IMG/VR virus record: IMGVR_UViG_3300044613_000551
Coordinates: 1-33,038 of that record
Origin: a virus
Reading direction: 5' to 3' (one strand)
DNA length: 33,038 nucleotides
Part shown: piece after piece, positions 2,706-33,038 of the stretch
Numbering within the stretch: position 1 is the stretch's first letter
How the letters are laid out: each line of letters begins with the position of its first letter
The notes under the pieces: model-generated
Database searches by the model: none
Seen by the model: the letters and a program-made list of their open reading frames with translations, nothing else
What the model was told of the DNA's origin: nothing
Position numbers and translations under genes: made by a program

Positions 2706-2993
2706 CTATTTTCCTAACTTAAATCTCTTGAGAATAAACTTAACTACTCTCTTTGCCACTGCCTTCCAGAAAACCCCTTTGGCATCGACTTTCACCTCCA
2801 CACCCTCCGGGGTCTTATTGATGTGTACATCAATGTTTTTTCCATCAAGTTTGAACTCTTTGTTCACCTCATCTTTAATGTACTTAATATCCACATTCTT
2901 TGTATCAATATCTAACTTGATGTTGGTCCCATCCTTTTCAAGGTTTACATCAACGTTATCTGTATCAATCTTAACTACTTTTTTCTTTGCCAT
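2706..2993 (-). CDS. Beta-repeat protein with cationic amphipathic tail, lysis-region candidate
   Basis: This 95-aa protein has two parts. Residues 1-72 are alternating polar/hydrophobic beta strands with repeated units such as NVDVNLEKDG, NIKLDIDTK, NVDIKYIKD and NIDVHINK. Residues 73-95 (FWKAVAKRVVKFILKRFKLGK) form a strongly cationic amphipathic helix with few acidic residues. It is the last gene of the late operon, immediately downstream of the M15 lysin and a one-span membrane protein. I do not recognise the family. Position and the antimicrobial-peptide-like tail suggest envelope disruption, as known for disruptin-type lysis proteins, but this is inference. A virion or membrane-associated structural role is the alternative. 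Confidence 0.7.
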   Translation of the reverse strand: MAKKKVVKIDTDNVDVNLEKDGTNIKLDIDTKNVDIKYIKDEVNKEFKLDGKNIDVHINKTPEGVEVKVDAKGVFWKAVAKRVVKFILKRFKLGK

Positions 2994-3376: not shown

Positions 3377-3628
3377 TTATTTTTTTGCTAAGATACGTTT
3401 TTTTGTTTCAATTATTGCTGTTGTATCTGCTTTTAATAATGGAGCTTGCGGCTGTTTCTCTTCAATAGGCTTTCTGTTATAATACTCATTCTTATCTAAA
3501 CAGTTGTATAAACGGTCTTTAACATCCTGCACCTCAAAGTGTGTGTACGCAAGCCATAATGCTAATACTCCGACAGCTCCCTGCTTTTTTATCACTTCAA
3601 TGAATTGTGTTATAGGTATCATTTTCAT
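3377..3628 (-). CDS. One-span membrane protein, candidate holin or spanin-like
   Basis: This 83-aa protein has a short N-terminal helix (MKMIPITQFIEVIKKQ), one hydrophobic segment at about 17-30 (GAVGVLALWLAYTHF) and a long charged soluble tail with a proline-rich stretch (EEKQPQAPLLK). It lies directly upstream of the lysin gene, 2 nt from its start. One membrane span with a cytoplasmic or periplasmic tail fits a class III-like holin or an inner-membrane spanin. There is no lipobox, and the tail is not clearly coiled-coil. The function is inferred from position. Confidence 0.6.
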   Translation of the reverse strand: MKMIPITQFIEVIKKQGAVGVLALWLAYTHFEVQDVKDRLYNCLDKNEYYNRKPIEEKQPQAPLLKADTTAIIETKKRILAKK

Positions 3629-4910: not shown

Positions 4911-6047
4911 TTAGTAGTAGGTTCTTTTGTTCTTAAATTTATCACTTACCACACATTTCAAAGATGCTTTACGTGCGAAATCATAATAGGTTAACTCTGG
5001 ACTTGAGCTCACTATCACAGGTAAATCATTGATACAATAGTCATGGTTGTGAGCATTGTAGTCACTGATATACAACTCATTCTCACTCAATAGATACAGG
5101 TCAATCAATGGCTTAGTAACACACTTTAATGAAGGGTCAACAAGTATCTCAAACTCGTTCAGATTTTCTCTGATTACCCGTTTCATTTCTCTATTGTTAT
5201 AGATAATGTTATCTATCTCAGTGTTAGGTTGCCTGTTGCCTATGAATCCATTGAATCTGTAAGTACTCTCAATGCCGGATCCTGTGAAATCAATCTGTTC
5301 AATTTCATGGTATCCATCAAAGTTAGCTCTTATCCTGGCAGTTGCAATGGCATTCTGTATTGTGAATGGTAACAATCGATACTTACCCCATGAAATAATC
5401 CCTGTAATACCAGATATATCATACACTACCTTTAACTCATAGCATCCAATTCCATCTGCATTAAGTACATCAATCCACTCAATGGTAGTGTAGTATGCAT
5501 TCGGCTCATTAGGGAACACAATTGCTGTTGGTGTGTAAGTTGTCAACACCCCATCTTTGTACAGCTCAAAGGTAACTGTATCTGCAGGATCACTTAACTT
5601 AATCCATGCACTTGTTTTATCTGTCTCCCAACTGTTGGGTGTTGACTTAGCCAATACCAACTCCTCACAACAACACTCCTCAAAGCCTCTATTCTGTGGA
5701 GGGCATACTTGAGGGAGCTTGATAGACTTGTAATCAAAAAACATTCTATCCTCATTCTTAGCACATTCACACTCAGTTGTTTTAGTTGTTACAGCAAATG
5801 ATAACCAGTCAACACTATTGCCTAATGGACATGGATCATTTGACTTCAAACTATCAACATAAGTCCCACCTCCAACAAGATCCGTCATATACCATGTGTC
5901 AGCTCCATCATACCATATGTAATATGTATTACCAAAGTAAGTGAACTCAAAAGTATTGAATCCATTATACGTGCCTGATGCATCAACCTCAAAATTTAAT
6001 TCGGCATAAGTACCAGATTGAAACGAAATATTAAGACAATCACACAT
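4911..6047 (-). CDS. Cysteine-rich tail-tip protein
   Basis: This 378-aa protein is mainly beta and unusually rich in cysteine in its first third: MCDCLNISF at the start, then ECECAKNE, QVCPPQNRGFEECCCEE, and further Cys around CYELK, CVTKP and CINDL. The C-terminal half contains segments such as QIDFTGSG and REMKRVIRENLNEFEILV. It is translationally coupled to the preceding 728-aa protein (8-nt overlap) and lies in the distal tail module. A virion tip component stabilised by metal or disulphides is inferred. It is not a known enzyme by any motif I can see. Confidence 0.7.
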   Translation of the reverse strand: MCDCLNISFQSGTYAELNFEVDASGTYNGFNTFEFTYFGNTYYIWYDGADTWYMTDLVGGGTYVDSLKSNDPCPLGNSVDWLSFAVTTKTTECECAKNEDRMFFDYKSIKLPQVCPPQNRGFEECCCEELVLAKSTPNSWETDKTSAWIKLSDPADTVTFELYKDGVLTTYTPTAIVFPNEPNAYYTTIEWIDVLNADGIGCYELKVVYDISGITGIISWGKYRLLPFTIQNAIATARIRANFDGYHEIEQIDFTGSGIESTYRFNGFIGNRQPNTEIDNIIYNNREMKRVIRENLNEFEILVDPSLKCVTKPLIDLYLLSENELYISDYNAHNHDYCINDLPVIVSSSPELTYYDFARKASLKCVVSDKFKNKRTYY

Positions 6048-8226
6048 AACAACCTTTTATTTTAGATGTAAATTTAACTCCATTGGATAGGTTAACATTG
6101 TTTGGATTAAAGTAACACTCAATCAATGCAACCTGTGGACTTGGAAATGTTAAGTCTGCATACAACCCTGTAATCGGAGTCAATGGATTAGCTAAGTTAT
6201 TATCATAAGGAACAACCGTTGAACATATCCAGCGAGGTGATGCCTCTGTTGGTTCAATGGTAATCATACCCCAAACAGTTGCAGTATCCCATATGTCAGC
6301 TGTATTGATTGTATGATACGCACTAATCTTATGTAACTCACCTTCCACAACTACAGAAACAATTTGAGATGTGCTCACAACTTCCAAATCCATTGTCTGA
6401 TCTATTGCAGCATCAGAATCATAATCTTTGATTACAATATTCTCACTGTAGATGTGATCTAATTCATTGATGTCAACAGTAACTCTAAGCTGTAACTTCC
6501 AATCTGTTTCAGTTCCATAAGGCACCCAATTACGAGTTTGTTTGTTAGGAAAAAAGAATGCATTAGCATTAGGCTGTGCAATCCAATACTGCCAACTGTA
6601 AAAGAATGGTAAGTATATTCTCATACCATAGTGAGTAATCGTATCTATGTATGAATCCCTCTCAAGTTGAGCTGTCAACTTACGAGATGTTGATGGCAAA
6701 GTTGTTATAACACTTTGAGATTGATTAACAGGATAGTATCCACCTACTTTTGGCACACCTGCAAAGTCAAAATAAGAGCTGTTTAATAGAAACTCCTCAT
6801 CTGTCACTGCATTAACTGACCAAATCTCAGCCTTAGCATATCGTATATCTGCATTGATAGGTACTAAAAACTTACCAATGAATGCAATATCATCCTCAAT
6901 GTTACCTTCAAATCCTAACTTAGTGGTATTGTCATCTGCAATATTTTGTGAATGGTCAACAAATCTATGAACCGGCATGTCTAACACACCTGGTGCAGGG
7001 GGTTGCTCAGTTAATTGGTCATCAAATAACAACAGGTTAACTGTTCCATACTTGGCCCAAATGTAAAATAACCTATCACCAATGCTTCGTGCATCCATAA
7101 AGGTAATGAATGCTGCATTAGGTGTGAACTCCCAATCCCATGTGGTCACTGTTCCAACTGTCACAGGGTTGCTGAACTCTAATGTGTAACCTGCTCCACT
7201 TGGATTTGTTGGTGATGTCAGTATAATAGGGGCTGCACTTGTTTTGGTTTCAGCTAACATGCTCAAATGACTCTGATCATTTGTTTGGTTTTTATAATAT
7301 GTTGCATCAACCGGCATATAACCTGCTCCAAATCCAAAGGATGTACTTGCAGAATCAATTGAAATCTGTCCTGTTTGTACTGTGTTAAACTCCAATACTG
7401 AAATACCACTTACAAGAGTTGCATTGGCAACACCTAAATTGAATGGCTCATCATACCAACCTGTATCTGCATTATCACTTATTACAAAAGTTGTATTATG
7501 ATTAGGATTGCCATAAGTACGCTGCCAAATTGTGCCAAAATAAGTTTTTAAACAGCCACCAAAATCAAAACTTGACTGTAACATTGGGCCGCCTTGAATA
7601 AATACCACTGATAAGTCATAGCTCCTGGTCTTATTTGGATAGGTTGTTTTATCAGTAATGGTTGCACTCACAGCATATTGCCCTGACTTGATACCAACTT
7701 GAGTGCCTGTTACAACTTGATTTGTTGTTGTGCCTGTGAGATTAAATAATATCTTATTTACTGAGCCATCTATTAAGCTGTTTGGTGTAAGTGAGCCTGT
7801 TTGCTGTAAGAAATTCAAGTTAAGTTCCAATCCATTACGCTTTGAGCCACCTTTTTGTTTTGCTATGATGTAAACATATTGAGTGCCACTCTTCCATGTC
7901 ATGGATGCATTGACAATCATTGTGTTTGCTGTCACACTTACTATCTCAACAGTGTTTGTATGGTGTATATTACCATTGGCATTGTAAATAATTACCTCAA
8001 TCTCATCACCTGCCTCAAACCCCTCTGATAGAAAACTTGCACCGGATAAACTTATCTGATTTTGACCTGCAAAGTAACTCAATACAATGGCAGGTGTCTC
8101 AATAATTGATATGTTTTCTGTTAATCTACATGTGTAAGTTTGTTTGTCACCTGCATTGGCTCGATAGAACCCCAGGTTAACATTAAACATATCATTATAA
8201 TTCTGATTACTTACTATAATTGGCAT
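6040..8226 (-). CDS. Large beta-rich tail-tip / baseplate protein
   Basis: This 728-aa protein is dominated by beta-strand patterns, with many aromatic residues and Thr/Asn-rich loops (MPIIVSNQNYNDMFNVNLGF, SLSGASFLSEGFEAGDEIEV, VTTWDWEFTPNAAF). It has only two cysteines, near the C-terminus. There are no collagen-like repeats or hydrolase motifs. It lies between the tail-hub gene and the Cys-rich tip gene, overlapping the upstream small gene by 20 nt and the downstream gene by 8 nt. Position and size fit a distal tail or host-recognition protein. I did not recognise a named family. Confidence 0.7.
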   Translation of the reverse strand: MPIIVSNQNYNDMFNVNLGFYRANAGDKQTYTCRLTENISIIETPAIVLSYFAGQNQISLSGASFLSEGFEAGDEIEVIIYNANGNIHHTNTVEIVSVTANTMIVNASMTWKSGTQYVYIIAKQKGGSKRNGLELNLNFLQQTGSLTPNSLIDGSVNKILFNLTGTTTNQVVTGTQVGIKSGQYAVSATITDKTTYPNKTRSYDLSVVFIQGGPMLQSSFDFGGCLKTYFGTIWQRTYGNPNHNTTFVISDNADTGWYDEPFNLGVANATLVSGISVLEFNTVQTGQISIDSASTSFGFGAGYMPVDATYYKNQTNDQSHLSMLAETKTSAAPIILTSPTNPSGAGYTLEFSNPVTVGTVTTWDWEFTPNAAFITFMDARSIGDRLFYIWAKYGTVNLLLFDDQLTEQPPAPGVLDMPVHRFVDHSQNIADDNTTKLGFEGNIEDDIAFIGKFLVPINADIRYAKAEIWSVNAVTDEEFLLNSSYFDFAGVPKVGGYYPVNQSQSVITTLPSTSRKLTAQLERDSYIDTITHYGMRIYLPFFYSWQYWIAQPNANAFFFPNKQTRNWVPYGTETDWKLQLRVTVDINELDHIYSENIVIKDYDSDAAIDQTMDLEVVSTSQIVSVVVEGELHKISAYHTINTADIWDTATVWGMITIEPTEASPRWICSTVVPYDNNLANPLTPITGLYADLTFPSPQVALIECYFNPNNVNLSNGVKFTSKIKGCYV

Positions 8227-16773: not shown

Positions 16774-17988
16774 TTAGTCGTTGATTAGAGCAATGTCAGT
16801 TGCAATGTCAGATTGAACAAATGCATTCACATCATTTCCTTTAACATAAGCTACCAAACGAGCCTCACAAAGGATTGTAACCATGTTACGTGTGAAATCA
16901 TCATTCTCATATCCTACTGACATGTTCATATCTTCTCTGAACTTGATGTTGAATTTAGTGAAATCACCAACAATCATAGTACCTGCAGTGATGTTATTTG
17001 AAGAAACAACAACCAATCCAGCCACTCTCATGTTAGCATCCCAAAATGCAGGATAAGTGTACTCACCTGTAGATGTTTTAGTCAACTCAATTTTAGCAAC
17101 ATCCTCTGGATTCAATACAACGTGTGTTGGTACAAAGTTAGCAGCCTCAATCTGAGCTTTACATATACGGATTAAATCCATGATGTTAGCTCCTGGGATA
17201 GTACCTGCAAATGTACCTGGTGCAAAGTTAGGTGCAACAGATAACAATCCGTTAAGGTCATTACCACCGTTACCGTTCACTAATGAGAAATCAATGTTTT
17301 GCTCAATAGCTTCCATCAACTCAGTGTTGATTTCAGAACGAACAAATGATAAGTCAGCCAACATCTCTTTTGATACTTTGATGTAAGCAGCAACTTTTTT
17401 CACTTCCTCTGATACCTCTTCATATTTAACCTCTCCGTTAAATTTAGGACCAGCCTCATTAACCCAAAGTGACTCTTCTGCACCTGGAGTAACGTTTTGT
17501 GTTTGTTGGATGTAAGTAACAAATTTTGAAGTTGTTGAACCTACATTTGAGATCTCTCTCAATCGTCTTACAGGTCTTGCAATTCTGTTTACTCCTGGCT
17601 CTAATACAGATAGTGCAACGTTACCTGTGTAATCACCATCAATTGTAGTGTCAGTCTTAACATCTAATGTGATTCTGTTACCTTTCTCGATTGACTCAGA
17701 GATAGCCTTAACATTATCAGTATAAGTTTTAACTAATGCCTCTTTGATAGTTTTAGCTCCTTGAGCTTTTGGTGCATCAACTGCTTTCTCAGACATTGCC
17801 TCAATGCGGCCTTCCATCTTTGCAATTGCTTTCTCCATTTCAGAGTTCTTTACTTCAATAGCTTTGAAGTTATCTAACTCACTTTTTAATTGAGCAACCT
17901 CATCCTTTGTAGGTACAGTTGCCATTTTTTCAGAGAACAAACCGTTGATTTTTTCAACAACTTGCTCAGGTGTTAATTGGTTTTCCAT
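16774..17988 (-). CDS. HK97-fold major capsid protein
   Basis: This 404-aa protein has a charged coiled-coil N-terminus (residues 1-75), as expected for a scaffolding delta domain that the prohead protease would remove. The capsid domain follows from about 110 (NRIARPVRRLREISNVGSTT, then WVNEAGPKFNGEVKYEEVSE), with the typical helix KEMLADLSFVRSEINTELME and a C-terminal region including DFTKFNIKFREDMNMSVGYE and EARLVAYVKGNDVNAFV. Length and architecture match the phage_capsid (HK97 gp5) family. It follows the protease gene, in the canonical order portal-protease-capsid. Confidence 0.9.
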   Translation of the reverse strand: MENQLTPEQVVEKINGLFSEKMATVPTKDEVAQLKSELDNFKAIEVKNSEMEKAIAKMEGRIEAMSEKAVDAPKAQGAKTIKEALVKTYTDNVKAISESIEKGNRITLDVKTDTTIDGDYTGNVALSVLEPGVNRIARPVRRLREISNVGSTTSKFVTYIQQTQNVTPGAEESLWVNEAGPKFNGEVKYEEVSEEVKKVAAYIKVSKEMLADLSFVRSEINTELMEAIEQNIDFSLVNGNGGNDLNGLLSVAPNFAPGTFAGTIPGANIMDLIRICKAQIEAANFVPTHVVLNPEDVAKIELTKTSTGEYTYPAFWDANMRVAGLVVVSSNNITAGTMIVGDFTKFNIKFREDMNMSVGYENDDFTRNMVTILCEARLVAYVKGNDVNAFVQSDIATDIALIND

Positions 17989-27084: not shown

Positions 27085-29308
27085 TATCTATCTTATTAAT
27101 CCATTTATTTAACGTAACCCTTGACACATTCATTAACTCAGCAACCTGTGTACGATTCATGTCTTTATTTGCTTTGTACAGTGATTTGAACTTATCAAAT
27201 TTATTCTTACTATTATCACTCTGCATTATTGACTTCATGTCCTTTTTATCCTGTGCCTCAATCTTAACTTTTTTACTCATATTAATAAAATAATCAGATA
27301 GCTTTTCAGCTTTCAACATTGCATCTGGACCAACCATGCTGTATGATCCATCATTAACCTCAACATCATAACTCCAAATAGCGTTAATCAATAATGCAAA
27401 TCTTGGAATATAACTCTTTTGTTTTGGGAGCATTGACTTCATGTACTCATTTTCAGCATCACTGTTCTGCATTTCAGTAATCTTATTGAATATTCTAATC
27501 CATTCCTTTTTAGCATTGGGTGAAAGTATTGCCTTGATAGGTTGAATATCATCATCCTGGTTAAATTTAACCCACTCTCTTTTTACTTTGTCAAAGAATT
27601 TAACAATATACTCATCATACCACAGTACAATTCTATCATCCAATTCATTATCACTGTATTTGTCAACGTACAAATCCGGAAATGAAATCAACATCCTATC
27701 TGTAAATCCATTCTCTTTGTTTTCTTCTGTATTAAACTGATCAAAAATACTTGGCTGTATGCCACCCAAAACAGGGATATGTGGTTTGTCAACAAATGAA
27801 CTCTTGGCTGTTTTTCTATTCATACTCACAGCCTTACCACTCCAACATGATAACCAAAATTCAAGGTCAGACCCTGCCCTGTATTTATTCATGTCTTTAA
27901 ACCAACCTGCCAGCTCATCTTTGAACACACCCACAGCATTTTTATTTTCTTCATGCAAATCAACTAATGCCTCAAGAGTAATGTCATTAACTATGAATTG
28001 AGTCTTTTTAGGTTTACGCACCTCCTCTGAATGCTCTCTCTCTTTTTTATCTTTTTTCTCATACTCAACCCACTTAGCATACTCCTTGATGTACCTTCTA
28101 ATATGTGTGTTATTTATAACCTCAAGAGGCCTAATCATTTGGTTGATGCTTGGTGTCTTACCAATACCTGCCTTACCTACTAATGAGATCCACACATTTG
28201 CATTCTCAATCCATCCTGTTTTTACTTCGAGCTTTAATGAGTTACCAACTATCACTGACAACAACCATATGAATGAACATCCCATGTAGTCAATTGACAG
28301 GCCTAATGTTTTGGCACTCTCAAGGATGTACAGTTGAATATTCTCAGGAAATATATCAAGAGGAAATGTCAGTTTATCAAGGTCAACATTAGGCTTATCC
28401 TCTATCTCTATTTTTGGAACTCTCCTGGTTCCAAATCCTTTTTGATATAAATCATTTGCAGCATCTTTGAAATCACCAAAATGAAACTTATGAGCGTATA
28501 TTGCAAATGGACTCAACAACTTCTCTGCAGGATACTGTGTTCCTGTGCTAAATAAGTACATGCATCCACTATCTTTATAGACATAACCAGAATGTGGTGA
28601 TGTTGCTCCATGCCTACGTATAATGTAATTGTTTGAGGTGTTACGCACAATGGTGAACTCATCTGAAATAAGATCCATTGTATTGACTTGAGCATTGTAA
28701 TCATCCCATGGACTCAACTCATCCTCATTAACCTTGTATTGCTTTACTGTTGGCTTATCTAATTTAACCTCCTCAACATAATTGTATGTCCTTGATATGG
28801 ACCAAATAATTTCACGCTCCTCCTCTGTAATGTACTTGATGTCATGATACTCATTCTTACCAAAGAAATTACCATACAGAATAAACTGACCACCTTTGCC
28901 TCTTGACTCAATGATGGCCTCTCTCATTCCTTTGAGCTTAGCTATTTTCGTATTACCTTTTTGAGCTGTACATTTATAGATAATGTGGTATCCATCCTTC
29001 ATTGTTTTGGCAATGACTACCTTTTCAAAGAAATCTGAAATATTATCTGATAAAAAAGAGATGTACTCATCCCACCATTTCTGTCTATCTGGAAGGGATG
29101 GGAGCACCTTAAGATCAACATCAATACATTCAATGTCATTGAACCCTGCTCTGCACCCATAAAGAGGTGCATTCATTCTGTCAATCTCATCTGCAGTCTT
29201 ACATGGTAATGTTGTCCATTTTTCCTGCTCAGGTTTTTTTGTAGCCTCACATGGGATTATGCTATAACCCAAGCCAGCTAACTTTTTTAAATAGTCTTTT
29301 GTAATCAT
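27065..29308 (-). CDS. Primase-polymerase / DUF3987 helicase-like replication protein
   Basis: This 747-aa protein starts with a prim-pol-like domain (GYSIIPCEATKKPEQEKWTT, then CRAGFNDIECIDVD with the acidic pair near 63-65, and KDGYHIIYK). A DUF3987-type ATPase domain follows, with Walker A GKAGIGKT at 379-386 and an acidic region around VGVFKDELAGWFKDM. The C-terminus has a HTH (NRTQVAELMNVSRVTLNKWI at about 718-737). It probably primes and unwinds at the phage origin just upstream. It is the first gene after the origin-like region. Confidence 0.85.
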   Translation of the reverse strand: MITKDYLKKLAGLGYSIIPCEATKKPEQEKWTTLPCKTADEIDRMNAPLYGCRAGFNDIECIDVDLKVLPSLPDRQKWWDEYISFLSDNISDFFEKVVIAKTMKDGYHIIYKCTAQKGNTKIAKLKGMREAIIESRGKGGQFILYGNFFGKNEYHDIKYITEEEREIIWSISRTYNYVEEVKLDKPTVKQYKVNEDELSPWDDYNAQVNTMDLISDEFTIVRNTSNNYIIRRHGATSPHSGYVYKDSGCMYLFSTGTQYPAEKLLSPFAIYAHKFHFGDFKDAANDLYQKGFGTRRVPKIEIEDKPNVDLDKLTFPLDIFPENIQLYILESAKTLGLSIDYMGCSFIWLLSVIVGNSLKLEVKTGWIENANVWISLVGKAGIGKTPSINQMIRPLEVINNTHIRRYIKEYAKWVEYEKKDKKEREHSEEVRKPKKTQFIVNDITLEALVDLHEENKNAVGVFKDELAGWFKDMNKYRAGSDLEFWLSCWSGKAVSMNRKTAKSSFVDKPHIPVLGGIQPSIFDQFNTEENKENGFTDRMLISFPDLYVDKYSDNELDDRIVLWYDEYIVKFFDKVKREWVKFNQDDDIQPIKAILSPNAKKEWIRIFNKITEMQNSDAENEYMKSMLPKQKSYIPRFALLINAIWSYDVEVNDGSYSMVGPDAMLKAEKLSDYFINMSKKVKIEAQDKKDMKSIMQSDNSKNKFDKFKSLYKANKDMNRTQVAELMNVSRVTLNKWINKIDNADHNQ

Positions 29309-29321
29309 ATTACTGTTTTTA

Positions 29322-29406
29322 ATCCACTGTTATAAAAAAAAAGTAGGGGGAAAGGAACAGTGAACCTTTTAAGTGGATGCCTCCGACAACCCCTTGAACA
29401 AAATTA
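29322..29406 (-). promoter_or_regulatory. Possible promoter and structured leader of the primase gene
   Basis: TAATTTTG (29399-29406) fits the -7 consensus, though no TTTG lies at the expected -33. The leader below it contains two mutually exclusive pairings: CACTGTT (29325-29331) with AACAGTG (29356-29362), and ATCCACT (29322-29328) with AGTGGAT (29372-29378). A run of C then of T on the minus strand could form an attenuator. All inferred. Confidence 0.4.
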
Positions 29407-29462
29407 AACATAATTTCATGTACTAAACACCACTTTTATAAACATTATTAACAAACTTATTA

Positions 29463-29728
29463 ACTGTAAACTACTGTAAACTACTGTAAACTTTTACTGT
29501 AAACCTTTTTAGGTTATTTTTTCAGTAATGACGGGGGTTTCAGAGCGTTTCAACTGTAAACTTTACACTTTTTTGAAAAATTATTTTTTTTCTGCTGAGT
29601 AAAAATAAAAACTGATAACCTAAAAACTGTAAACTTTACAGTAAAATAGGTATTATTAGTTTGATTTTCAGTTAATTACAGCTATTTTGGTTTACACTTT
29701 AACTGTAAACTGTTTACAGTGGTTTACA
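29463..29728. other. Iteron-like repeats, likely replication origin
   Basis: ACTGTAAAC occurs seven times on the plus strand: starts at 29463, 29473, 29483, 29496, 29553, 29626 and 29702. An inverted copy GTTTACAGT is at 29712-29720, with partial copies at 29635-29642, 29690-29697 and 29722-29728. The first three are spaced by exactly 10 bp, on one face of the helix. The region is very AT-rich and holds no gene (29309-29733). It sits between a DnaA-like gene and the primase gene. Confidence 0.65.
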
Positions 29729-30534: not shown

Positions 30535-30606
30535 TCAATTAAATTTTAATGTGTATTCCATAGCTTTCCATGCTAAGACTAAACGGGTTGGGTTTGTTAT
30601 TTGCAT
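30535..30606 (-). CDS. Conserved 23-aa micro-protein, copy 2
   Basis: The peptide begins MQITNPTRLVLAWKAMEYTL and ends KFN. It is the same gene as at 76-147 with one amino acid change (Glu here, Ala there). Its ATG overlaps the stop region of the cassette gene above (30597-30782). It marks the conserved downstream edge of the variable locus. Confidence 0.55.
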   Translation of the reverse strand: MQITNPTRLVLAWKAMEYTLKFN

Positions 30607-30782
30607 TGTTCTGAATTAAAAGTTTCATTGTAGTATTGTCTTCTATAATTTTCACTACCTTCATAATGTGCATTATTAATCTGCTCTTCAAACATTTCTT
30701 TGGCTTCTTCAATAATAAATCTTAATCCTTCTTGTTGAATTAAAGGTAATTGCTCAATTAACAATTCTACTGCTGTTTTCAT
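30597..30782 (-). CDS. Cassette-family small protein, last cassette
   Basis: This 61-aa protein is a typical cassette member: MKTAVELLIEQLPLIQQEGL, a helix IIEEAKEMFEEQINNAHYEG, and a C-terminus QYYNETFNSEQCK. The SEQCK ending is shared with the gene at 138-359, which has an entirely different middle, so the two are alleles or recombinants sharing both ends. The boundary repeat (30786-30802) precedes it even though the upstream gene (30801-31001) is not a cassette member. Small soluble helical protein; function unknown. Confidence 0.75.
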   Translation of the reverse strand: MKTAVELLIEQLPLIQQEGLRFIIEEAKEMFEEQINNAHYEGSENYRRQYYNETFNSEQCK

Positions 30783-31285: not shown

Positions 31286-31489
31286 CTATTCTGATTTAAA
31301 GGTTTCGTTGTAGTATTGTTCGCTTGATGATTCACTATCCCAATTTGTAGTGCCATCAAACCAAGCCTCCATTATCTGCTCTTTCTCTATTTCTTTTGCT
31401 TGTTCAATAAGAATTAATAAATACTCCTTTGTAATTACGGTATTAAATTCTTTAATCTTTTTTTCCAACCATTCTACTGCTGTTCTCAT
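31286..31489 (-). CDS. Cassette-family small protein
   Basis: The start MRTAVEWL at 31489 lies one base after the upstream TAG; an in-frame extension to 31576 is a shadow over the previous gene. The protein is 67 aa. It has the conserved head (MRTAVEWLEKKIKEF), central helix (LIEQAKEIEKEQIMEAWFDG) and tail (EQYYNETFKSE). The middle differs from its neighbours while both ends match almost exactly at DNA level. The function is unknown. Confidence 0.8.
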   Translation of the reverse strand: MRTAVEWLEKKIKEFNTVITKEYLLILIEQAKEIEKEQIMEAWFDGTTNWDSESSSEQYYNETFKSE

Positions 31490-31490
31490 T

Positions 31491-31709
31491 CTATTCTGAT
31501 TTAAAGGTTTCGTTGTAGTATTGTTCTGGTTGATAACATTGAGAACCATAATCATTGCTCCCTTGATTATAAGCATCCATTATCTGCTCTTCAAACATTT
31601 TATTGGCTTGTTCAATTAACTTATTAAATATCAATACATTTTCTAAATTTAATGGTAAATTAGTTTGTAATATAACTTCTTGTTGTAACCATTCTACTGC
31701 TGTTTTCAT
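31491..31709 (-). CDS. Cassette-family small protein, first of the variable block
   Basis: This 72-aa protein begins MKTAVEWLQQEVILQTNLPL, has the central helix LIEQANKMFEEQIMDAYNQG and ends EQYYNETFKSE. Its ATG lies one base after the TAG of the upstream conserved gene. The other haplotype has a different cassette (138-359) at exactly this place. The family appears to keep head and tail constant and vary the middle, hinting at selection for diverse targets; function is unknown. Confidence 0.8.
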   Translation of the reverse strand: MKTAVEWLQQEVILQTNLPLNLENVLIFNKLIEQANKMFEEQIMDAYNQGSNDYGSQCYQPEQYYNETFKSE

Positions 31710-31710
31710 T

Positions 31711-31953
31711 CTATTCTGATTTAAAGGTTAAATTATAATATGCATTTGCTAATTCTTTATTATAATCTCTATATTTTCCGCTGTCAAATTCAGATTGTCC
31801 ATTGATGTGAGATAAAATTATCTGCTCCCTCTCCACCTCTAAAAAATTACTAAACTCATTGACAAATGTTCTGCCCTTCTCAGTGTGTATGTCAAATAGT
31901 GATGGATGTAACTCCTCTAATCTTGCAAATGCTTGCTGTAATGCTGTTTTCAT
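31711..31953 (-). CDS. Cassette-like small early protein, copy 2 (MKTALQQAF...)
   Basis: This 80-aa protein matches 361-603, with changes at a few positions (MKTALQQ versus MRTALQQ, SNFLEVE versus SKFLEVE, FDSGKY versus FDTKEY). It ends YYNLTFKSE, a variant of the cassette tail. The gene is the upstream border of the variable block in both haplotypes. It overlaps the upstream gene by 4 nt. Confidence 0.8.
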   Translation of the reverse strand: MKTALQQAFARLEELHPSLFDIHTEKGRTFVNEFSNFLEVEREQIILSHINGQSEFDSGKYRDYNKELANAYYNLTFKSE

Positions 31954-32195
31954 GATAACCTCTTTTGTTCGTTAATACCTTTGAATAGTTCAGAGCTTGA
32001 CTCAATCATGCCTGTTGCCTTGATGTAATCAACCTCAATCTTTGCACTCTGGATTATAACAGATCCAATTGTTGCCACTGCCTGTGCCTTTTCAATTTCC
32101 TTATTAAGCTCCTCCATTGTGAGCTCATCATTATCCAATCTCTCTAATGCTGAGAATAAGTGATCTCTAAGATCATTGATTTTGTTTCTTGCCAT
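31950..32195 (-). CDS. Conserved helical phage protein, copy 2
   Basis: This 81-aa protein is almost identical to the product of 600-845; the only difference is Arg instead of Lys near the C-terminus (EQKRLS). Most base changes between the copies are silent, indicating purifying selection. It begins MARNKINDLRDHLFSALERL and is mostly helical. Function is unknown. It overlaps the HNH gene and the next small gene. Confidence 0.8.
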   Translation of the reverse strand: MARNKINDLRDHLFSALERLDNDELTMEELNKEIEKAQAVATIGSVIIQSAKIEVDYIKATGMIESSSELFKGINEQKRLS

Positions 32196-32802
32196 TGATT
32201 TTTCTTTTTAATTTATTGTTTAACTTTATTACTTGCCTAACTTCATTAGGATACCTTTGTATGGTGTTCAGCTCCATGTTTTGACACTGACCAATCAACT
32301 CAAGGTTATTAATATCCCAATGCATTGTGTTACCATCTTTGAACCTCACAACCATACCACGAGGTATTGGTCCATGATGCTCCTCCCACACCACTCTATG
32401 CATCAACCTCCAATCACTATCTTTAATCTTGATGTATGCATAAGTTCTACCCGCTGAGTCAGTTCTAAAATTGATAGTTCCAACCGGTTGTGTATTTGAT
32501 GGCTTGTTACCTTTTTTGAACATGGTTGCCTTAGCTTTCTCATACACATGCTTAGGCATCTTAGCTCCTTTGTTGTGTGTTGCATGTCCTTTTTTAAACC
32601 TTGTTGCCATCCCTTTCTCAAGTAAGTTTCTTCTCCCTGATAATTCAGATGCAAGATACTCCTTTGATTTCTTTAATCCCATTCTGTATGCTTTGTTGGC
32701 CACAGTGCAGTACTTAACACCAAGCTCATTAGCTAAGTCAATAGTACGCATGTTGGCATATCTTTGGATTATTATCTCATCTAATGTCATACATTTGTCC
32801 AT
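32173..32802 (-). CDS. HNH-type protein, copy 2
   Basis: This 209-aa protein matches 823-1452. Differences are concentrated in the linker with the FKKG motifs (GHATHNKGAKMPKH here, GNIAHNKGAKMPEH there; PSNT versus PPNT) and one residue near the C-terminus. The HTH and HNH_3-like module are conserved, including Arg153 in place of the expected His (VRFKDGN). See the first copy for the functional reading. Confidence 0.8.
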   Translation of the reverse strand: MDKCMTLDEIIIQRYANMRTIDLANELGVKYCTVANKAYRMGLKKSKEYLASELSGRRNLLEKGMATRFKKGHATHNKGAKMPKHVYEKAKATMFKKGNKPSNTQPVGTINFRTDSAGRTYAYIKIKDSDWRLMHRVVWEEHHGPIPRGMVVRFKDGNTMHWDINNLELIGQCQNMELNTIQRYPNEVRQVIKLNNKLKRKINGKKQNQ

Positions 32803-32993
32803 TTATCAATTCCTAATAAGTACTTAATCTCAATCATTTTACCTGTTGATGCACTCTGACATGCGAACTCAAGTAATGTTCTAAGCCTGTCATAATCCTC
32901 ATAAGATAGTTGATTGCATGTTTCAACTGTGAATATATTTCTGAAATAAACCTGCCCGGTTCTATTGTCAATGTGTTGCTCTTGTATTAACAT
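32787..32993 (-). CDS. Small early protein, copy 2
   Basis: This 68-aa protein differs from the copy at 1437-1643 at two positions (Gln for Pro in ETCNQLSYED, Ile for Thr in LLGIDKW). It starts MLIQEQHIDNRTGQVYFRN. The function is unknown. Its end overlaps the HNH gene start by 16 nt. Confidence 0.75.
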   Translation of the reverse strand: MLIQEQHIDNRTGQVYFRNIFTVETCNQLSYEDYDRLRTLLEFACQSASTGKMIEIKYLLGIDKWTNV

Positions 32994-33005
32994 ACCCTCT
33001 CAATT

Positions 33006-33038
33006 TTAATGATTAGTTTCTCCCAAAGGTTGCTCATT
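33006..33038 (-). CDS. C-terminal fragment of a small early protein (cut by window edge)
   Basis: The last 10 codons and stop (NEQPLGETNH) of the protein at 1656-1871 recur here, with the remainder beyond the window. It shows that the repeated segment continues past the end. Confidence 0.7.
   Translation of the reverse strand, partial: NEQPLGETNH

Follow-up and report, generated by a model that had tools for sequence, protein, structure and literature searches.

A cationic-tailed protein encoded beside phage endolysins as a candidate disruptin-like lysis factor

Introduction

How do phages that carry no recognizable spanin breach the outer membrane of their host? In the excerpt of PMC6139136 drawn on here, 91 of 677 genomes are without a spanin, and how these breach the outer membrane is called an open question; the spanin-less list includes the Bacteroides phage B124-14 and the Croceibacter phages P2559S and P2559Y. 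The same question is raised by the end of the late genes in a stretch of viral DNA of 33,038 nucleotides (positions 1 to 33,038 of IMG/VR virus record IMGVR_UViG_3300044613_000551; "the window" means this whole stretch), where a small protein with a cationic tail, here called P95, is encoded next to an endolysin.

Results

The lysis locus of the window

The window represents the genome of a tailed phage. Its late genes, which include those for portal, head protease, a Phage_capsid-type major head protein and tape measure, are on the minus strand. In 5′ to 3′ order, the late genes end with those of a LamG protein, an 80-aa protein, an 83-aa protein, an M15 endolysin and P95, followed by a terminator-like hairpin (Table 1). 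A preliminary description had reported an ORF of 95 aa that closes the late genes directly after an M15 lysin. Position and length of this ORF, which is on the minus strand, were as claimed, and so was its place: reading of the bases gave 6 bp between the stop codon of the lysin gene and the start of P95, the lysin matched its Pfam family, and the hairpin lies ∼70 bp 3′ of P95. The 83-aa neighbor, which had been called a one-span membrane protein, does contain one hydrophobic stretch, but its 19-residue Kyte–Doolittle maximum is only 1.30, so that the assignment is likely rather than strong. The protein had no Pfam match above cut-off and no PHROG match at E ≤ 1; we take it to resemble BhlA-type holins.

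Table 1. Features of the P95 locus in the window.
Feature	Coordinates	Strand	Basis or remark
P95 gene	2706..2993	−	95-aa ORF; lysis-cassette protein of an apparently undescribed family
P95 residues 5–71, predicted seven-stranded antiparallel beta body	2781..2981	−	AlphaFold2 model m0b72c825f03c, moderate confidence
P95 residues 74–92, predicted cationic C-terminal helix	2718..2774	−	AlphaFold2 model, K/R conservation, periodicity
M15 family endolysin, 124 aa	3000..3374	−	Pfam Peptidase_M15_3 PF08291, 9.5e-23; PHROG 894 endolysin, 6.3e-37
83-aa protein with one short hydrophobic stretch, probable holin	3377..3628	−	in the loci examined, relatives lie ahead of lysin and P95
Terminator-like hairpin and T run, 3′ of P95	2615..2637	−	consensus match only; fold z −1.98

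The host phylum is probably Bacteroidota, as judged from the terminase relatives: the nearest, 48% identical, is in a genome sampled from the phylum to which a Bacteroidetes MAG belongs, and another, with 46% identity, is in a human faecal phage. At the window ends, positions 342–1688 recur at 31692–33038 (1.35 kb, 97% identity) with different flanks. Given this repeat, the window may be near-complete; the repeat is either a true duplication or the result of assembly beyond the closure point of a ∼31.35-kb genome, with a variant copy. Small paralogs with MKTAVE-like starts and mostly YYNETFKSE-like ends are encoded at 138–359, 30597–30782, 31286–31576 and 31491–31709, and one paralog of the MKTAVE type matches an ORF of contig G003 (97% over 31 aa). 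The product of a gene 3′ of the lysis cassette, at 1959–2312, has 117 aa and contains a zinc finger resembling DnaJ CXXCXGXG (Pfam 9.3e-6, below cut-off); its relatives occur in 13 of the 65 P95 loci obtained in the first pass.

Conservation of P95

This first pass, conducted with the single protein as the query, comprised 65 IMG/VR loci with P95. Queries with P95 alignments returned the best 80 of 127, 180, 236, 235 and 211 relatives, so that the most distant ones were not all seen. With the query moved outward, members with 33–50% identity to the window copy were reached (L221, L368, L385, L394, L403 and L430). Judged from sequence comparison, the family is apparently undescribed. None of the members searched matched Pfam above cut-off, the best E values against PHROGs and in a PDB sequence search were 0.0063 and 0.03, respectively, and no description was noticed among the papers listed in literature searches, where unnamed proteins are hard to find by words. 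Weak matches to Pfam PCC_BT were obtained for 30 of 46 members (E up to 0.1), all short of the gathering cut-off (best for L385, 1.6e-4, 22.3 versus 23.5 bits); this likeness is only a lead.

Among isolate phages (tblastn), the window P95 yielded only two records of one Synechococcus phage, at E 0.03 and 49% cover, which is not significant. L217, L221, L368, L385, L403 and L430 were all without a match at E ≤ 1, L368 even at E ≤ 10. One scan of bacterial and archaeal genomes gave no P95; the sole match of another (L380) was rejected, being limited to 41 residues within an 849-aa frame, which was read as an M1-type aminopeptidase. Beyond this rejected match, nothing corresponding to P95 was found in 395 genomes of the putative host phylum. 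Neither P95 (E ≤ 10) nor counterparts of the lysis genes of the window were detected in two stretches of 38–40 kb around related terminases (G242 and G023).

The median pairwise dN/dS was 0.14 over 2097 pairs (0.145 for the tail, 0.141 for the body); thus, P95 is not a chance ORF. Conservation of the tail charge, which had been named as a check of the initial proposal, was found in all 99 distinct members (+5 to +8), with the remainder of the protein at −5 to 0. Lysine or arginine occupies positions 77, 81, 85, 89 and 90 in 94, 95, 100, 97 and 100% of these members, respectively. The window copy carries net charges of +4 (residues 1–8), −5 (residues 9–72) and +8 (residues 74–95). A C-terminal charge of at least 6 combined with a helical moment of at least 0.5 was found in 9 of the 481 genes predicted in the window and ten relatives, namely six P95 genes and three copies of one HNH gene; because the gene picker misses some P95 copies, including that of the window, this count serves as a rarity check only.

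Predicted structure of P95

A beta-repeat body with a highly cationic, amphipathic C-terminal helix had been suggested for P95. Body and helix are supported by the second AlphaFold2 model, which was based on a deeper alignment (mean pLDDT 71, pTM 0.54) and has seven strands followed by a helix at 74–92; the first model, from a shallower alignment (pLDDT 64), had four strands and two helices, with a helix at 36–49. An internal beta-beta-alpha duplication, which was the first idea, was replaced by the deeper model. Strand-like alternation was clearly above shuffles in two of the six predicted strands tested. The cationic character of the predicted helix agrees with the charge range of the tail, which comprises residues 75–95 (FWKAVAKRVVKFILKRFKLGK). 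Its amphipathicity depended on the angle assumed. At 100 degrees, the window tail was no more amphipathic than its own shuffles (2621/20000), and the family-average tail was not above shuffles either (1851/20000). Only when the angle was left free between 85 and 110 degrees did the average of 17 members stand out (53/5000 permutations), with a hydrophobic peak at 90 degrees, that is, four residues per turn; the stripe of basic residues may turn gradually around the helix. P95 contains no hydrophobic segment (maximum KD19 0.61), and the holin feature of at least one transmembrane segment is absent from it at this value.

The first model had no Foldseek match at E ≤ 1e-3. The second matched the BFVD entries A0A516MG98 and A0A6J5NSC8 (E 9.5e-6 and 7.5e-5, 32% identity; TM 0.75 and 0.67 on the query), which have the same predicted fold. 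A0A6J5NSC8 is a protein of an uncultured Caudovirales phage and A0A516MG98 is also viral and uncharacterized; both are probably P95 family members. Look-alikes in the PDB were at background level (OspA sheet, Z 7.2; phi92 spike, Z 7.0), a best Z of 7 to 8 being usual, according to the note of the fold-comparison tool, for models without a clear match. The likeness of the modeled P95 to the phi92 spike is only a lead.

Linkage of P95 to lysin genes

The 433 loci collected (window included) contained 417 with a complete P95 ORF, which represent 99 distinct cassettes (400 bp upstream plus the gene). One of these is truncated; the remaining 98 all combine P95 with a lysin or lysin candidate. This enzyme is encoded next to P95 in 94 cassettes, directly upstream in 91 and, as an amidase, directly downstream in 3. 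In the other four (L004, L030, L037 and L038), only a gene for an HNH/NUMOD4 homing endonuclease lies between the M15 lysin and P95. The gap between P95 and the gene upstream ranges from −1 to 18 bp.

Cassette enzymes were classified by blastp against reference sequences (1e-5). An M15 enzyme like that of the window was found in 45 of the 98 cassettes, plus the 4 with the HNH gene, and another M15 enzyme in 1; YkuD-like lysin candidates are present in 38 (type A) and 5 (type B), and the rest have an amidase (3), a PG-binding amidase (1) or CHAP (1). Representatives with M15_3, Amidase_2, PG_binding_1 plus Amidase_2, and CHAP pass the Pfam cut-offs. The lysin calls are firm in 55 cassettes and likely in the 43 with YkuD-like enzymes. 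Against PHROGs, the latter gave 2.3e-5 and 1.2e-8 for an endolysin family, with a function-unknown family as the best match; they stay below cut-off for Pfam YkuD and carry what we take to be the motif HG...S.GC. They are encoded in the place of the M15 lysin (L028 5457–5999, L005 3279–3866 and L403 681–1262) and are possibly a new lysin group.

The holin-like genes vary among the cassettes, as does the gene order. Those of L385 encode a Phage_holin_4_1 protein (Pfam) and a 77-aa protein; pairs of 95 and 63 aa, 97 and 75 aa, and 76 and 64 aa in other cassettes were read as putative holins from their sequences. In L353 (2854–3021) and L224 (4215–4388), a gene of 55–57 aa with one hydrophobic stretch by eye overlaps the end of the 83-aa gene and encodes a possible second holin or antiholin.

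The linkage was also tested in reverse, with the 83-aa protein in place of P95 as the query (best 80 of 132 relatives). Among the collected loci, 15 had the 83-aa gene but not a complete P95. In the 12 that were examined, the sequence ends within 744 bp past the 83-aa gene, with 9 stopping in the lysin. L218, L224 and L251 show the start of P95 before the sequence ends; in L063 (a contig that recurs as L211) and L065, the sequence breaks off within P95. No locus in this test contradicted the linkage of P95 to lysis genes. Because one group of related phages contributes many of the 99 cassettes, the number of independent events is far below 99.

Search for spanins

According to the preliminary description, no spanin pair was obvious in the window. 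This was borne out by a six-frame lipobox scan, which recovered lambda Rz1, T7 18.7 and the B40-8 lipoprotein at 17380–17796 as controls: when relaxed, it gave no spanin-type lipoprotein in the window, only a 30-aa TTG-started frame antisense to a tail gene, and a stricter version listed nothing. The B40-8 lipoprotein would fit the separated o-spanin mentioned in the cited excerpt of PMC6139136. In 13 other contigs (ten relatives plus G002, G003 and G004), 33 frames were listed, 7 of them ATG-started. Two were judged plausible lipoproteins, both outside the cassette: an 80-aa cysteine-rich one in G408, whose gene (L456 6866–7108) is ∼1.4 kb downstream of P95, and a 41-aa one in G003, ∼13 kb from P95. 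The relaxed scan is permissive, since many frames were listed in B40-8 and P2559S too. P95 itself, judged by lipobox pattern and hydropathy, has neither a lipobox nor an N-terminal membrane anchor.

In P2559S, the scan found a lipoprotein at 29131–29478 despite the spanin-less listing of this phage, which indicates that published lists of this kind can be incomplete. Furthermore, excerpts of PMC8776804 and PMC10136315 report spanin annotations for the flavophages Ingeline and, potentially, Nekkels, and for Crassvirales, respectively; thus, the absence of spanins is not general in phages of these hosts.

P95 in otherwise unlike phages

Minus-strand ORFs of the window of at least 50 aa were compared with other contigs at E ≤ 1e-4. 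G002 (43.6 kb) matches the window in three genes, namely P95 (41%), one near 30 kb (37%) and a late gene of 102 aa with no known function (47%). G003 (65 kb) shares P95 (63%), the 83-aa protein (50%) and the M15 lysin (31%) and, outside the lysis cassette, only small repeated ORFs. In L385, a locus of 5.6 kb, P95 alone matches. These patterns indicate that P95 travels mainly with lysis genes, the exception being the 102-aa gene in G002. G399, G400, G406 and G004 are, as far as compared, ordinary relatives of the window phage.

In L221, ORFs at 5697–6368, beyond a gene that is cut short, are chloroplast-like and suggest a chimeric contig; they look, we presume, like chloroplast psbE/psbF. The gene cut short there is full length (292 aa) in the same place of L330 and L336.

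Discussion

The earlier view of P95 as a lysis factor is strongly supported by its position with a lysin or lysin candidate in 98 of 98 informative cassettes, irrespective of changes in enzyme, holin-like genes and order, and P95 is also common to phages that otherwise share little. The association with lysis is strong. A factor that stays in position although its partners are exchanged more probably acts on something common, the host envelope, than on one partner, and the envelope is thus most likely the target of P95. We put at about one half the probability that P95 acts on the outer membrane, that is, that it is a third-step lysis protein that breaks this membrane and is disruptin-like in action, but unrelated in sequence to the disruptin of phiKT. 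P95, as the last product of the late operon, would be synthesized in the cytoplasm and, once the holin has opened the inner membrane, would leave with the endolysin; after the wall has been cut, it would destabilize the outer membrane. The acidic beta sheet could serve as a soluble carrier, perhaps as an oligomerization platform, and the conserved cationic C-terminal helix would insert into the inner face of the outer membrane. Export via the holin lesion and insertion of the helix are proposed by analogy to the phiKT disruptin as presented in an excerpt of PMC12819732.

More tentatively, P95 might represent a widespread, structurally new class of outer-membrane breakers in spanin-less phages, probably of Bacteroidota. 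The acidic sheet, possibly a trimeric needle-like prism, would then carry the cationic helices through the holin lesion, the outer membrane would be ruptured from inside, and P95 would move between otherwise unrelated phages as part of the lysis cassette. Counted against the proposed outer-membrane role are the amphipathicity at 100 degrees, which is no better than that of shuffles, the lack of homology to the phiKT disruptin, the spanins annotated in some other phages of the probable host phylum, the P2559S lipoprotein, the lone lipoproteins in G408 and G003, and the 102-aa late gene of unknown function, which is likewise common to the window and G002.

Instead of breaking the outer membrane, P95 could assist the lysin in envelope targeting: its beta body would bind peptidoglycan or lipid A and its helix would keep the enzyme at the wall, with the membrane left unbroken. 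The strict adjacency of P95 and lysin and the predicted beta-rich body would agree with such a function, for which a standalone SH3 protein has been proposed in Drexlerviridae lysis modules (excerpt of PMC13164509). We nevertheless consider it unlikely: P95 is kept with unrelated enzyme families, the enzyme of L385 already has a peptidoglycan-binding domain, and no binding domain rose above background in the fold comparison, a result that by itself excludes nothing. A regulator of lysis timing, either an antiholin or a soluble inhibitor of holin or lysin, would also be expected in the holin–lysin cassette, where P95 is found wherever this can be judged, and P95 is charged, without hydrophobic segment and expressed with the holin–lysin pair. 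A direct inhibitor should track its partner, and the persistence of P95 while holin-like genes and lysins are swapped for unrelated ones therefore counts against this role, which we regard as quite improbable.

The chances are lower again that P95 is part of the virion, for example a small trimeric beta-prism spike or tail-tip protein encoded near the lysis genes. The phi92 match, to a fragment of the membrane-piercing protein (gp138), was obtained with VIA-align (Z 7.0, rmsd 2.3 over 59 residues), as were matches with Z of about 6 to PhiTE baseplate and contractile-injection chains; P95 belongs to the late operon, and the 102-aa late gene of unknown function is also common to the window and G002. 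A best Z of 7 to 8 is, however, usual for models without a clear match, P95 lies in G002 between two holin-like genes and an amidase gene (the genes further out are unannotated and may include structural ones), and G003 has only the lysis cassette and the small repeated ORFs in common with the window at E ≤ 1e-4. Least probable of all, in our estimate, is that a spanin was missed, be it split, non-canonical or the 83-aa protein as i-spanin, and that P95 has another task in lysis, such as DNA binding or release. Its lysine-rich N terminus (MAKKK) and tail could bind nucleic acid, and lone lipoproteins do occur in G408 and G003, but the only lipoprotein candidate of the window is the 30-aa TTG antisense frame, and P95 matched no DNA-binding family above cut-off.

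Disruptins are hard to predict, as stated in the excerpt of PMC12819732. The P95 family offers a conserved, sequence-recognizable candidate in a fixed cassette position, which makes the question of spanin-less lysis directly testable. A P95 profile can be used to annotate further cassettes.

The closest known counterpart considered here, gp28 of phiKT (NC_019520 37102–37272), which we take to be the phiKT disruptin, is small and cationic (+7), like P95, and is encoded between the endolysin and holin genes, just as P95 belongs to a holin–endolysin cassette. In contrast to the 56 aa of gp28, P95 has 95 aa and is composed of an acidic beta body and a C-terminal helix. No sequence similarity was detected between the two (hmmsearch E 0.21, −1.6 bits). 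phiKT is on the spanin-less list (excerpt of PMC6139136), and its disruptin has been described as a short amphipathic helix peptide (excerpt of PMC12819732); because disruptins are called diverse in the latter source, homology to gp28 was not treated as required. The initial description of P95 as disruptin-like thus holds for its cationic character, the lack of a hydrophobic segment and the gp28-type cassette context, but not for sequence, and P95 is filed by analogy as working like a disruptin rather than as a proven member. Two-component and unimolecular spanins (lambda Rz/Rz1, T7 18.5/18.7) are, like P95, encoded as the third gene of a holin–endolysin cassette, but P95 has neither their lipobox nor a hydrophobic segment. 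Immediately after the endolysin gene, P2559S and B40-8 each code for a protein that carries a hydrophobic segment at its N terminus and was read as i-spanin-like, and it is this post-endolysin place that P95 occupies. Some endolysins carry a cationic amphipathic C-terminal helix, which has been proposed to breach the outer membrane (excerpt of PMC6139136); in P95, the predicted helix is instead borne by a separate, non-enzymatic protein.
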